Positions 15,515 through 21,133 of a stretch of DNA of 64,000 nucleotides are shown here, piece by piece. Source of the stretch: Candidatus Nitrosocosmicus franklandus (GTDB lineage Archaea; Thermoproteota; Nitrososphaeria; Nitrososphaerales; Nitrososphaeraceae). Each line of letters opens with the position of its first letter. Positions within the stretch are counted from its first letter, which is position 1. The translations under genes and the position numbers were made by a program. Below the pieces are notes generated by a model. That model saw nothing but the letters and a program-made list of their open reading frames with translations, was not told the origin of the DNA and made no database searches. The DNA lies in contig NZ_LR216287.1 in the NCBI RefSeq assembly GCF_900696045.1, positions 1,426,001 to 1,490,000 of the forward strand. Direction: 5' to 3'.

Positions 15515-17374
15515 CTATCTTCCAAATAGCCTATCACAAGCCTCCTTTCCCACTATTTGAACGCATTGATTGTAGATATCATCGCTAAAATCATCAAAAG
15601 GATTGAATGGTTGTTGGAATGGGAATTCGTCCCTTGGAATATTTGGAGAAAAAGGAGGAAGAATATTTTCTGTCTGATCCGGCTTAGGCCCCGCCTTTAA
15701 TATAACAGGGATCTCTACTGTGTCATTATCTCGATATACGGTAAGTTGAACGCTGTCTCCCACTTGTTTAGTAGAAAGTACTTTTCTGATATCCTCTACA
15801 GATCCTATTGTAATATTCTCGATTTCAAGTATTATATCTCCACCAAGTTCTATTTGATTTCCATTAATATTGGAAGTAATATATCCTCCTCTAATTCCGG
15901 CCTCCTCAGCCGAACCATTTCTAAGAACATCAATGACAAGAAATCCTTTTTCTCCTCCGTTGATAACGCTAGAGGGTACATTCATTTGTCGAGCTATTTC
16001 AGGTGTAACATTAATTCCTGTTATTCCAAGAGATGGATTGTTATCATCTTGTATTTCCTGTGTAAGCGCATTGTCTATAATTGTAGAGTTAGGCCTTGCA
16101 GCCAAAGTCAGATCTATTTCTTGTACTTGCCCATTTCGTATAACTGTAAGAGTAACATTTTCTCCAACCTTCTTTTCTCTATCCAGATAAGACAGTAAAT
16201 CATCTATTTTTCTAATTGATTTATCATCAATTCCAATGATCACATCTCCTCCAAGTTCTATCTCTCTTCCATCTATTTCTGTCAATATTGAGCCACCTCG
16301 TATCCCAGCTTTCTCAGCGGGACTTCCAGAGGTAACTTGTATTACCAAAAATCCTGTAGTATTCTGAAGGTTCATCATTTCCGCAATATCTGAGTTTATA
16401 TCTGTTCCAGACACTCCCAAGTAAGGATGTTGGTATTCACCCGTAGCAATGATAGAGGGAACCACTTTTTGTATCAAGTAAGAAGGTATTGCAAATCCTA
16501 CTCCTGAATACACACCTGTAGCAGAGAAAATGGCAGTATTGATTCCTATAACCTCGCCTTTCATATTTAGTAAAGGTCCTCCTGAATTTCCCGGGTTTAT
16601 TGCAGCATCAGTTTGTATTATATCGGGAATTGAAAAAGCAGGTGTATCTTCTATAATGGATCTTTGACTATTTTCAGATGGCAAAGCCGGAAGAACCCTT
16701 CCAAGACCGCTTACGATTCCTTCAGTTATGGAAGCCGACAGTCCAAAAGGATTACCTATAGCAGCAACTCTTTGCCCAACATCCACTTCAGAAAAGTTGC
16801 CAATCGATAATGGCTCCAACTTTTCAATGACTTCTATATTATTTTCTACGTCAATCTTTAAAACGGCTATTTCAGCAAATGGATCTACACCAACAACTGT
16901 TGCTTTATAGCCGGTACCATCAGTGAATGTAACATCAAATTCTCTATTGATAGTATCTCCTGCTACAACATGATAATTTGTAACTATATGTCCCTCCTTG
17001 TCATATACAAAACCGGAACCCAAGCGAGATGCACCAGGTAAATTTGAATCTTGTGTAACCTGCACCACAGAATGCTCCACTTTATCATAAAGTTTAATTA
17101 AATCCTCCTGCAGAGATTGATCAAAACTATTACTTGATGATATTGTGTTGTTGTTATTGTTGTTTATATTTGTAGAATTGTTATCATTTTTAGTTATATT
17201 TAATGATGTTTGTTGTTGTTGAGCAAAAGCGTCAATAAAAGTATAGTTTCCAGTAACTAAGAGATTATTTGCATTCGGTATAAAATAAAAACCTAAAGAC
17301 AAAGTAACTACAACTATTGCAACAAAAGACATCAAAAATTCGCTCTTATCGATTAGCTTCGTGTTATAGGACAT
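15515..17374 (-). CDS. htrA: HtrA/Deg-type trypsin-like serine protease with two PDZ domains
   Basis: The 619-residue protein has an N-terminal anchor or signal (about 13-32), an Asn-rich linker (60-80), a trypsin-like domain (about 90-310) and two PDZ domains (about 318-428 and 448-570). It should degrade or refold misfolded proteins outside the membrane. His135 (TNYHVVAG) and Ser264 (NPGNSGGP) are present, but the catalytic Asp position reads Glu168 (FAEIAVLKI in place of the usual DxAVLK). Both PDZ domains contain a glycine-rich insert (AGIRGG..IxLGGD). The C-terminal tail is Pro/Phe-rich with two Cys. A single gene with an ATG start. Confidence 0.93.
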   Translation of the reverse strand: MSYNTKLIDKSEFLMSFVAIVVVTLSLGFYFIPNANNLLVTGNYTFIDAFAQQQQTSLNITKNDNNSTNINNNNNNTISSSNSFDQSLQEDLIKLYDKVEHSVVQVTQDSNLPGASRLGSGFVYDKEGHIVTNYHVVAGDTINREFDVTFTDGTGYKATVVGVDPFAEIAVLKIDVENNIEVIEKLEPLSIGNFSEVDVGQRVAAIGNPFGLSASITEGIVSGLGRVLPALPSENSQRSIIEDTPAFSIPDIIQTDAAINPGNSGGPLLNMKGEVIGINTAIFSATGVYSGVGFAIPSYLIQKVVPSIIATGEYQHPYLGVSGTDINSDIAEMMNLQNTTGFLVIQVTSGSPAEKAGIRGGSILTEIDGREIELGGDVIIGIDDKSIRKIDDLLSYLDREKKVGENVTLTVIRNGQVQEIDLTLAARPNSTIIDNALTQEIQDDNNPSLGITGINVTPEIARQMNVPSSVINGGEKGFLVIDVLRNGSAEEAGIRGGYITSNINGNQIELGGDIILEIENITIGSVEDIRKVLSTKQVGDSVQLTVYRDNDTVEIPVILKAGPKPDQTENILPPFSPNIPRDEFPFQQPFNPFDDFSDDIYNQCVQIVGKEACDRLFGR

Positions 17375-17556: not shown

Positions 17557-17570
17557 TTTACATTTGTAAA
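17557..17570 (+). promoter_or_regulatory. Copper-regulon operator, site 1 (YHS gene)
   Basis: TTTACATTTGTAAA, a perfect TTTACA-N2-TGTAAA dyad. It ends 38 bases before the ATG of the YHS gene, nine bases before the TATA element (TTAAATAT, 17580-17587). The same 14-mer stands before copA with the same spacing and before the regulator gene. The position just upstream of TATA/BRE suits an activator or a competing repressor. Confidence 0.8.
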
Positions 17571-17608
17571 GCCTCATAGTTAAATATGTTATTTACTGAT
17601 TACAAAGC

Positions 17609-17752
17609 ATGGCAAAAGATCCAGTTTGTAATATGAATGTGGATGAAAAAACTGCGAAATATGTATCAAAAATTAATGGCAACAAAATTTATTTGTGTTC
17701 TGCAGCTTGTAGACAAAAACTAGAGCAAAATCCATCAAAGTATGGTTACTGA
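17609..17752 (+). CDS. Small YHS/TRASH-domain metal-binding protein
   Basis: A 47-residue protein from ATG at 17609 to TGA at 17750-17752. It begins MAKDPVCNMNVDEKTAKY and continues KIYLCSAACRQKLEQNP, a complete YHS domain with Cys7, Cys30 and Cys34, closely similar to the N-terminal domain of the CopA protein nearby (MAKDPICGMFV). It probably binds Cu(I) and may deliver copper or sense it. Promoter layout (operator, TATA, ATG) is identical to that of copA, so the two should be co-regulated. Confidence 0.82.
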   Translation: MAKDPVCNMNVDEKTAKYVSKINGNKIYLCSAACRQKLEQNPSKYGY

Positions 17753-17774
17753 TACAGGATCTAAATAACAGGAG

Positions 17775-18308
17775 TTAATCATCCAACTCGGATTTTCCCT
17801 CATATTTTCGTTTTATCGACTCTATTCTACCACGGTATTTTTGACTGTAGCCTGATTTGCAAGAATTACAACAAAAGAACCTTTCAATATTTGCAAATTT
17901 GAGGATTTTAGGTTTGTCAAATACGGGACCCTCACAGAAATCACAAATAATATTTATCGCTATACCAGTTGAAATTTTTTTCTGAATTTCTCGTATTTCA
18001 TCTTTTAAACTACTACTATTCTGATATAACTGAGAGGTATCCCTTTTTCTTTTAGTTATATTTTCCTTCAGGCTTTCCAATTGAACGAACTTCTTTTTTT
18101 CTCTCACTGCACCCGCTTCTATTTTTTCAAAGTCAAAGATTGGTAAAACACCTTTAATAAATCCAATATTCACGAGTCTTTCATATCTTGCTTTTACTGT
18201 TGGAGTAGTTATTCCCGTATCTCTTGAAATCTGTCTGAACGATTTTCTACCGTCTTCTAAAATTGAATTAAGAATAGATACGTCAATGTCGTCAAGTTCT
18301 AGTGGCAT
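17775..18308 (-). CDS. Metal-sensing regulator: AsnC-type HTH plus TRASH domain
   Basis: A 177-residue transcription factor. Residues about 4-60 form an AsnC/Lrp-type winged HTH (LDDIDVSILNSILEDGRKS, FRQISRDTGITTPTVKARYE). A charged coiled coil follows (about 80-120). The C-terminus has a TRASH-type zinc/copper-binding domain with CDFC and FFCCNSCKSGY. The TRASH domain, the Cu-ATPase nearby and a shared operator mark it as the copper-responsive regulator of this cluster, like archaeal CopT/CopR proteins. ATG at 18308 is used; a TTG two codons earlier (18314) is possible. Its own promoter carries the shared operator, suggesting autoregulation. Confidence 0.88.
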   Translation of the reverse strand: MPLELDDIDVSILNSILEDGRKSFRQISRDTGITTPTVKARYERLVNIGFIKGVLPIFDFEKIEAGAVREKKKFVQLESLKENITKRKRDTSQLYQNSSSLKDEIREIQKKISTGIAINIICDFCEGPVFDKPKILKFANIERFFCCNSCKSGYSQKYRGRIESIKRKYEGKSELDD

Positions 18309-18353
18309 AGACAACAGCTCTTAACCCTTTAGTAATAATCATGTATATTACTT

Positions 18354-18367
18354 TTTACATTTGTAAA
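18354..18367 (-). promoter_or_regulatory. Copper-regulon operator, site 2 (regulator gene)
   Basis: The same 14-mer TTTACATTTGTAAA (plus strand reading) 45 bases upstream of the regulator's ATG at 18308 (39 from the TTG at 18314). The nearest TATA-like element (TAATATAC, 18343-18350) is only three bases away, closer than the nine bases at the two target genes, so occupancy may repress rather than activate here. Confidence 0.75.
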
Positions 18368-18576
18368 GTATGTTGGTGTGTATAGATTTCTTTGTTGGAT
18401 CTACTTAGGAGAAAGAAATCCAAATGCTTTTTGGATTGTTTTACCATATCATAGCACCAATAAAAACCTGAATTTTATGATACGGCTATAAATTACTACA
18501 TATAGTCAATAACGAGGGATCCTAACGAATGCATACCCTGATTTTTCTAAGGACATCTTTATTTCTTCGATATTTG

Positions 18577-18732
18577 TTAGAGATCAAATTCTATGATCAC
18601 TCTATCTGTCATGTAATCTATGTCAATTTTCTTGATTCCCTTGTTGTTTCTCAACTGATTTTCTACAATAGGTTTGCAAGTTGTGCAATACATTCCAACA
18701 GCTCTAAACTGAATCTTATCATACGATATCAA
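18577..18732 (-). CDS. HMA-domain copper chaperone (CopZ-like)
   Basis: A short heavy-metal-associated domain protein. The motif VGMYCTTCKPIVENQL carries the M-x-C-x2-C metal site, followed by the typical strand pattern GIKKIDIDYMTDRVIIEFD. It should bind Cu(I) in the cytoplasm and hand it to the neighbouring CopA. The frame is open from a TTG at 18786 (69 residues), but the extra residues do not fit the HMA fold; TTG at 18732 (51 residues) gives a normal start just before the first strand. It is transcribed divergently from copA. Confidence 0.78.
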   Translation of the reverse strand: MISYDKIQFRAVGMYCTTCKPIVENQLRNNKGIKKIDIDYMTDRVIIEFDL

Positions 18733-18873
18733 TATCCATCTAATCGTATATTCGTAATTTAATATCTTGACTTTATAAACTAGCAAAGAGTATCCAAATT
18801 CAAGGCAATTACAATGTCTACACTGTTTGCATTTTGTAATACATTATTAATATGACAGATTCGATTTTTGTAT

Positions 18874-18887
18874 TTTACATTTGTAAA
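18874..18887 (+). promoter_or_regulatory. Copper-regulon operator, site 3 (copA)
   Basis: TTTACATTTGTAAA, ending 38 bases before the copA ATG and nine before its TATA element (TTATATAT, 18897-18904, at -29 to -22). The spacing is identical to site 1. It lies in the divergent region between copA and the HMA gene and could serve both. Confidence 0.82.
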
Positions 18888-18925
18888 TCCCAGTTGTTAT
18901 ATATGTTCTACTTTCAATATATGAT

Positions 18926-21133
18926 ATGGCAAAAGATCCTATTTGCGGTATGTTTGTTGAGGAAGAGGAAAGCTCAATTCATTATAAAAAGGATGGAATT
19001 ACATATTATTTTTGCTCATCTCAGTGTCTTAACGAATTTCTCGAGCCTGAGAAGGCTCTAAAAAAGTTAAAGGTTCATGTTATGATAAGCATAGCCCTAA
19101 CAATACCCATAGTTTTACTCAGTTTGCCTCATATGATCCCACAGCTAGGGCATATTTTACCTATGGAGATGATGGGATATACGAATTACATACTTTTGAT
19201 CCTGTCTACTCCTGTCCAATTTTGGATTGGCTGGAGATTCTATAGGGGATTTTGGGATGGTATTAAAGCTAAAGCATCGAACATGGATACTTTAATTGCA
19301 ATAGGTACTACTGCTGCATATGTTTATAGTGCAATAGTTACATTAATTCCGGGATACTTTCCCTTTACCGCGGTATACTTTGAGACGGCTGCAATAATAA
19401 TTACGCTTATTTTGATAGGAAGACTCCTAGAAACAAAGACAAAGGAAAAAGCCTCTTATGCTGTCAGAAAGCTGCTAGATTTAAAGCCACGAACTGCTCG
19501 AGTACTAAGAGCAGTTATAAGAGAAAAAAATGATACAAATAAAAGTAATGAAAGTTCAACATTGGATAATCCGGGTCTAAAATTAGTTTCAAAGGAATTC
19601 AAGGAAATAGAAATTCCAGTCGAAGAAGTAATAGAAGGAGACTTGATGGTTATACGACCCGGCGAAAGAATTCCAACTGACGGAATTATAATCGATGGCT
19701 CTTCATCCATAGACGAATCTGCAATAACAGGAGAAAGTATACCCGTAGACAAAGTAAAAGGAGATGAGGTAATAGGCGCTACTATCAATAAGAACGGTTT
19801 ACTAAAAGTAAGAGCAACTAAAGTTGGTCAAGATACAGTCTTATCTCACATCATTACCTTAGTGGAAGAAGCCAAAACAGGAAAAGCAAAGCTGGAAAAA
19901 ATGGTCGACCAGGTTGCTAAATATTTTGTTCCTGCAATCATAATAATAGCAGTGGGAGTTTTTCTTGGATGGTACTTTGTAGGAAACGCTGGATTGACAT
20001 ATTCTATACTGGCTTTTGTGTCAGTAATGATAATTGCATGTCCATGTGCGTTGGGATTGGCAACTCCTGCAGCTTTAATGATGGGTGCCGGAAAAGGTGC
20101 TGAAAACGGAATCTTGTATAAGGGTGGTGAACAGATAGAGATAGCAAGTAAAGTTAATACAATAGTATTTGATAAAACTGGAACACTAACAGAAGGAAAA
20201 CCTTCTGTTACCGATATTATATCACTTGATCAGATCGATAATCTCGGACTCTTAAAACTAGCATCAATGGCAGAGTCTGGGTCTGAACATCCATTGGCTC
20301 AGGCGGTCATTGATAGAGCAAAAAAAGAAGGAATTGAAACGATAGCTTCTCCCGATTCATTTAAGGCAGTAGCAGGACATGGCCTTCAAGCCGCATACTC
20401 TAATCAAAAGATAATTATCGGAAATAGAAAAATGATGTATGACAACAAAGTGCCTATTGATAAAGACGTAGAAACAAGACTGGCACAACTGGAGCAAGAA
20501 GGTAGGACTGCCGTCTTAGTTTCGGTAAATAATCGCTTGTCTGGAATAATTGCAATATCTGATACCATCAAAAAGGGAGCAAAAGAAGTGATAGAAGTAT
20601 TAAAAAAACAAAGGATCGAACCAATAATGCTTACAGGAGATAATGAAAGAACTGCCAAGGCTGTGGCCTCCAAGATCGGAATAGATAGGGTAATAGCACA
20701 GGTATTGCCGCATCAAAAGGAAGCGATTGTAGATGATTTGAAGACAAAAGAAAATAAAGTTGTGGCCATGGTAGGTGATGGAATTAATGATGCACCTGCT
20801 TTAGCAAGAGCTGATTTGGGAATTGCCATAGGTTCTGGAACTGATGTAGCTAAAGAAACTGGTGGCATCATTTTAATTAAGAATGATATTCGACATGTAA
20901 TAACTGCACTGGAACTTGGAAGGAAAACTGTTTTAAAAATAAAACAAAACCTGTTTTGGGCCTTTGTTTATAATACTGGATTAATTCCAGTTGCAGCTGG
21001 TATTCTTGTTCCTTTTTTTGGACTTTCAGTATTTGGCTGGCTTCCAATCCTTGCAGGTATAGCAATGGCCATGAGTTCAGTAACAGTAGTTACAAACTCT
21101 CTACTACTAGGAAGATATAAACCTAAAGAATAG
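18926..21133 (+). CDS. copA: Cu(I)-exporting P1B-type ATPase
   Basis: A 735-residue P-type ATPase. It starts with a YHS/TRASH metal-binding domain (Cys7, Cys30, Cys34) rather than an HMA domain. Eight membrane helices carry the copper signature: CPC at 372-374 in ACPCALGLATPAA, the YN of FVYNTGLIP in TM7 and MAMSSVTVVTNS in TM8. The phosphorylated Asp416 lies in DKTGT, TGES is in the actuator domain, GSEHPLA in the nucleotide domain and MVGDGINDAPAL in the hinge. It pumps Cu(I) out of the cytoplasm. The promoter carries the shared operator. A Lys/Asn/Ser-rich insert of about 20 residues sits in the actuator domain near residues 195-212. Confidence 0.95.
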   Translation: MAKDPICGMFVEEEESSIHYKKDGITYYFCSSQCLNEFLEPEKALKKLKVHVMISIALTIPIVLLSLPHMIPQLGHILPMEMMGYTNYILLILSTPVQFWIGWRFYRGFWDGIKAKASNMDTLIAIGTTAAYVYSAIVTLIPGYFPFTAVYFETAAIIITLILIGRLLETKTKEKASYAVRKLLDLKPRTARVLRAVIREKNDTNKSNESSTLDNPGLKLVSKEFKEIEIPVEEVIEGDLMVIRPGERIPTDGIIIDGSSSIDESAITGESIPVDKVKGDEVIGATINKNGLLKVRATKVGQDTVLSHIITLVEEAKTGKAKLEKMVDQVAKYFVPAIIIIAVGVFLGWYFVGNAGLTYSILAFVSVMIIACPCALGLATPAALMMGAGKGAENGILYKGGEQIEIASKVNTIVFDKTGTLTEGKPSVTDIISLDQIDNLGLLKLASMAESGSEHPLAQAVIDRAKKEGIETIASPDSFKAVAGHGLQAAYSNQKIIIGNRKMMYDNKVPIDKDVETRLAQLEQEGRTAVLVSVNNRLSGIIAISDTIKKGAKEVIEVLKKQRIEPIMLTGDNERTAKAVASKIGIDRVIAQVLPHQKEAIVDDLKTKENKVVAMVGDGINDAPALARADLGIAIGSGTDVAKETGGIILIKNDIRHVITALELGRKTVLKIKQNLFWAFVYNTGLIPVAAGILVPFFGLSVFGWLPILAGIAMAMSSVTVVTNSLLLGRYKPKE

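Follow-up and report, generated by a model that had tools for sequence, protein, structure and literature searches.

The window, by which we mean the whole 64-kb stretch of DNA that was analysed, contains a locus where the genes of a YHS-domain mini-protein, a TRASH-domain regulator and the copper-translocating ATPase CopA lie close together, each preceded by a copy of the same 14-bp dyad, TTTACA-N2-TGTAAA. The features of this locus are:

17557..17570, plus strand: dyad TTTACATTTGTAAA of the YHS gene, 38 bp before the ATG (37-40 bp at the YHS orthologues of the genus)
17580..17587, plus strand: TATA box TTAAATAT of the YHS gene, 9 bases after the dyad (A/T block from +10 to +17 in 13 YHS promoters)
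17609..17752, plus strand: YHS-domain mini-protein of 47 aa, putative copper-binding protein or chaperone (PF04945, E 1.9e-7)
17775..18308, minus strand: CopR/CopT-type regulator of 177 aa, with an AsnC-type HTH, a linker of ~55 aa and a C-terminal TRASH domain
18344..18350, minus strand: TATA-like box TAATATA of the regulator gene, 3 bases after the dyad
18354..18367, minus strand: dyad of the regulator gene (TTTACAAATGTAAA in regulator orientation), 45 bp before the ATG
18577..18786, minus strand: CopZ-like HMA frame between the regulator gene and copA (PF00403; tblastn matches in two frames)
18874..18887, plus strand: dyad of copA, 38 bp before the ATG (37-38 bp in 11 copA promoters of the genus)
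18897..18904, plus strand: TATA box TTATATAT of copA, 9 bases after the dyad
18926..21133, plus strand: copA, P1B-type copper-translocating ATPase with an N-terminal YHS domain (PF00122, PF00702, PF04945)

The identities of the three genes proposed in the first-pass annotation (YHS micro-protein, TRASH regulator, copA) were confirmed by Pfam, and the copA product additionally scores above the cut-off of TIGR01511, copper-translocating P-type ATPase (NCBIfam). The CopZ-like HMA frame carries a C-terminal frameshift near 18580, and its similarity to a 75-aa homologue runs on in another frame to 18512. Such breaks are also present in two relatives (L061, L079); judging by the sequence, the frame is either a decaying gene or the result of a sequencing error.

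An exact search finds the dyad at 17557, 18354 and 18874 and nowhere else in the 64-kb window, which corroborates all three sites reported earlier (17557-17570, 18354-18367 and 18874-18887) together with their geometry, i.e., a TATA box 9 bases and an ATG 38 bases from the site at the YHS gene and copA, and a TATA-like box 3 bases from it at the regulator gene. Matches to the dyad with one or two mismatches occur in the window at chance level, and none of 100 dinucleotide shuffles of the window contained any exact dyad. Whole-genome statistics were obtained by pattern searches and from a first-order Markov model built from the window, under which TTTACA-N2-TGTAAA is expected 0.026 times per window and 1.14 times per genome, and its TT-centred form TTTACATTTGTAAA 0.15 times per genome. 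The 2.84-Mb genome contains four exact dyads, three of them in the window, and no match to the reversed pattern that served as control. The fourth dyad (G000:C1:1147651-1147664; L035:5652-5665) lies 37 bp upstream of a SnoaL-like gene that is decayed here: an in-frame stop interrupts it, and an intact homologue in G006 (L060) has the dyad at an equal distance. In the window, the central two bases of the dyad are TT along the YHS gene and copA and AA along the regulator gene.

The regulator combines an N-terminal AsnC/Lrp-type HTH (PF13404, E 4.5e-11; PF13412, E 6.3e-12) with a C-terminal TRASH domain (PF08394, 28.0 bits at a cut-off of 27), and its cysteines C122, C125, C146, C147 and C150 are invariant in 15 homologues. 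The classical Lrp/AsnC (FFRP) family is defined by a C-terminal RAM (AsnC_trans_reg) ligand/oligomerisation domain, and in a Pfam profile search the regulator of the window gave no PF01037 match to it; a longer TRASH paralogue from a sister genome (L053) does possess a RAM domain (PF01037, E 6.6e-12). The AlphaFold2 model of the regulator is poor outside the HTH (mean pLDDT 49.7). The regulator gene is linked to that of a copper P1B ATPase, copA being divergent and ~0.6 kb off, and the same linkage is seen in many relatives. The AsnC HTH, the TRASH cysteines, the linkage to a copper ATPase and a palindrome upstream of BRE/TATA are all traits of archaeal CopR/CopT, except that the spacer of the copA palindrome is 2 rather than 3 bases.

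The arrangement extends through the genus. In 15 Nitrosocosmicus genomes we counted 69 dyads versus 14 matches to the reversed-pattern control, and 40 of the 69 are situated 25-60 bp before the start of a regulator, YHS or copA gene. At 11 copA promoters, 37-38 bp lie between the dyad and the ATG, and the A/T block begins at +10, with 9 bases between it and the dyad; at 13 YHS promoters the distance to the ATG is 37-40 and the block again begins at +10. At 17 regulator promoters the distance to the ATG ranges from 31 to 45 and the A/T block is constant at +4. The other 29 dyads precede none of these three genes; part of them may belong to other plausible targets and the remainder may be due to chance. 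Further genes of the genus with the dyad at 37-39 bp encode a His-rich protein of 263-293 aa, a 66-aa CC-ending metallothionein-like peptide and a SnoaL-like protein. Homologous BNR/sialidase-like proteins in two genomes (L055:2998, L081:3074) have a dyad ~46 bp before the start. G002, another genome of the genus, lacks both a full-length regulator match and the dyad.

At two loci (L085, L051) copA and copR are divergent and have one dyad in common. The central bases in the genus are mostly AA along the regulator gene and TT along copA and the YHS gene, which this arrangement explains, a single dyad being read from either side. It also suggests that the two separate dyads of copA and the regulator gene in the window descend from one common dyad, parted by the HMA frame.

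Beyond the genus, the comparison covered families f1 and f2 and, within them, genera g6 and g18, which we take to be Nitrososphaeraceae, Nitrosopumilaceae, Nitrososphaera and Nitrosopumilus, respectively. Among 61 regulator homologues from other f1 genera, family f2 and one further family, 42 have an exact dyad at most 110 bp upstream, the shuffled expectation being 0.003 loci; TRASH regulators sampled from outgroup families of the phylum showed no dyad before their genes. The scan of relatives proposed in the first-pass annotation, for dyads at most 60 bases upstream of these genes, recovered them not only in the genus but also in further genera of its family and in a second one. The number of dyads in a genome also tracks the regulator: the median in g18 is 11 with it (n=9) versus 2 without (n=36; p=5e-6), and in f1 and f2 together 3 versus 1 (p=9e-10), where the p values come from raw class-wide genome counts and ignore kinship. 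The reversed control differs little between genomes with and without the regulator. Conservation in the genus and outside it, the spacing and the co-occurrence with the regulator thus back the earlier proposal of a copper regulon with a fixed promoter geometry.

In the g18 genome G113, 14 of the 16 dyads fall into one 23-kb island around the regulator gene, several of them directly before copper-type genes. Dyads in the island (L290, L291; G113:C1:1029732-1052919) precede genes for multicopper oxidase, Met-rich, DsbA-like, HtrA-like, kelch-like and unknown proteins. From its gene content the island looks like a large copper-resistance region, of which we found no description. In the window, a gene for an HtrA/DegP-like protease (15515-17374, minus strand) borders the YHS gene, and in two f2 genomes (L291, L292) HtrA-like proteases are encoded behind a dyad and adjoining the regulator gene, a hint that copper stress and protein quality control are connected. 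In g6, where the loci have ~50% GC, most dyads precede genes for YHS proteins, CopA, CC-peptides (metallothionein-like) or DUF4396 proteins, mostly at 37-46 bp from the start and with the position of the TATA box unchanged. In two genera that belong to different families (L293:3121, L311:2189), the gene of a DUF4396 membrane protein has the dyad at a distance of 37-39 bp, suggesting that DUF4396, a protein family of unknown function, plays a part in copper handling.

The first-pass annotation considered the operator of this type of regulator to be undescribed. This is wrong: operators for the AsnC-HTH/TRASH type are already known, as is a closely similar switch in Pyrococcus. The operator of P. 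furiosus CopR (PF0739), TTNNCAWWWTGNNAA, is located directly upstream of BRE (PMC7830388), and CopR activates copA and represses copR, the two forming a divergent pair in which the sign of regulation follows distance (PMC7830388). The regulator described here resembles P. furiosus CopR in joining an Lrp/AsnC-type HTH to a TRASH domain, in the half-site TTNNCA/TGNNAA and in the position of the operator upstream of BRE, and at L085 and L051 also in its position between divergent copA and copR. The spacer, however, is 2 bases here and 3 in the P. furiosus operator, TTTACA/TGTAAA is near invariant and the spacing to TATA fixed, unlike in P. furiosus, and P. furiosus CopR, which belongs to a different phylum, is described as an Lrp-like octamer, whereas our 177-aa regulator has no detectable RAM domain. 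Sulfolobus CopT/CopR (SSO2652; copTMA) is likewise an archaeal TRASH regulator encoded beside a copper ATPase and a metallochaperone, but the sequence of its HTH is strongly different; CopT of N. viennensis is 38% identical to it (PMC7785015). New here are the spacer of 2 bp, the absence of the Lrp ligand domain from the regulator, the fixed geometry and the order-wide regulon. No earlier report of the dyad in archaea, including ammonia-oxidising archaea, was found in the literature searched, which mostly excludes subscription journals.

Two promoter motifs, TTCSGSMTTTGWACYANT and RATTTAAABATAGATTTAAATAATAAS, were reported for copper limitation in N. viennensis (PMC7785015). They, too, are copper-related promoter motifs of an ammonia-oxidising archaeon, but differ from the dyad in sequence and in the genes that they precede. 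The regulation of the cop genes of N. viennensis was called an open question (PMC7785015).

In our opinion, the CopR/CopT-type regulator encoded at 17775-18308 very probably has the dyad as its operator; it would activate its targets and limit its own expression. Three observations make this AsnC-HTH/TRASH protein by far the strongest candidate for binding the dyad: its gene is preceded by one, the number of dyads tracks its presence, and P. furiosus CopR provides a precedent. We infer binding, copper sensing and the sign of regulation, the latter from the position of the dyad in the promoters and by analogy with P. furiosus. An AsnC-HTH dimer or a higher oligomer would occupy the dyad, and Cu(I) would be sensed by the C-terminal TRASH domain. 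At target promoters, where the dyad would abut BRE and 9 bases separate it from the TATA block, the copper-loaded regulator may help TFB/TBP to bind. The targets would be copA and the gene of the YHS mini-protein and, in relatives, those of the His-rich protein, the metallothionein-like CC peptides and DUF4396 proteins; in family f2, multicopper oxidase, Met-rich, DsbA-like and HtrA genes may be added. At the regulator promoter of f1, the TATA block is ~6 bases closer, so that the dyad would cover the position of BRE and expression would be limited. The two spacing classes fit the P. furiosus model because BRE has room at the targets and none at the regulator promoter, and the arrangement probably goes back to a single dyad that divergent copA and copR shared. 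The regulator may not repress itself in all cases, given that an upstream scan of homologues found no dyad before g6 regulators and that in two g18 genomes (family f2) the dyad of the regulator gene has the target-type spacing. A contrary datum comes from N. viennensis, where copA2, which adjoins copZ and copT, was reported to be up under copper limitation (PMC7785015). Simple activation by copper would give the opposite response; we do not equate copA2 with any locus described here.

A different sign of regulation was proposed for CopR of Thermococcus onnurineus, and by that model the regulator would be a plain repressor at all of its promoters, released from DNA by copper. Data on T. onnurineus suggest that CopR represses both copA and itself (PMC7830388), and a dyad adjoining BRE could block TFB. 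Mutants of P. furiosus, S. solfataricus 98/2 and Halobacterium nevertheless point to activation of copA (cited in PMC7830388), and the 9-base spacing, near-constant before many gene families and across several genera, is easier to reconcile with contact with TFB/TBP than with a steric block, which tolerates variable positions. We thus regard repression at all promoters as unlikely, though it deserves to be kept in mind.

The dyad might also be bound by another protein, such as a winged-helix repressor of the CopY/BlaI type. The cop box of bacterial CopY/CopR repressors, TACANNTGTA / RNYKACANNTGTMRNY (PMC7253601), is followed by copper export genes, and its form TACANNTGTA is exactly the 10-base core of the dyad and is present within all three dyads of the window. 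Its bacterial binders are CopY-type repressors, which have a winged helix like that of BlaI/MecI and belong to a family different from that of the AsnC/TRASH regulator. The genome has one weak PF03965 match (G000:C1:953578), distant from the cop genes, and there is none among the cop proteins of the window. PF03965 matches are weak in general, and eight of the 15 genomes of the genus, seven of them with dyads, have none at the search threshold, whereas the number of dyads tracks the AsnC/TRASH regulator and the dyad is found before 42 of 61 homologues of its gene. A CopY/BlaI-type protein as the one that binds the dyad was rejected on this distribution, and a binder other than the AsnC/TRASH regulator is very improbable; the core of the dyad probably came to match the cop box through convergence. 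That the repeated 14-mer is a product of chance or a functionless leftover of promoter duplication is scarcely credible and was rejected, even though the genome is AT-rich and the YHS gene is related to the N-terminus of copA, so that the two promoters could have a common origin, since 0/100 shuffles contained a copy and the dyad stays exact across genera and families as its flanks diverge, preceding unrelated genes at equal spacing in distant genera.

Operation of the dyad by the CopR/CopT-type regulator can be extended, with less confidence, to the whole order: there may exist an order-wide copper regulon controlled by a RAM-less Lrp-derived regulator, in which a 6-bp difference in the distance to TATA sets activation or self-limitation and the core of the operator has become a cop box by convergence. 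We put this forward tentatively, its chances being somewhat short of even.

Ammonia-oxidising archaea depend on copper enzymes, and the dyad brings their control of copper within reach of direct tests. An exact 14-bp operator with a fixed promoter geometry would allow copper-responsive genes to be listed from the sequence alone across the order. The two spacings make it simple to test whether, in archaea, an operator mediates activation or repression according to how far it lies from BRE/TATA, and the regulator itself is an example of how an Lrp-type factor may work without the usual oligomerisation domain.
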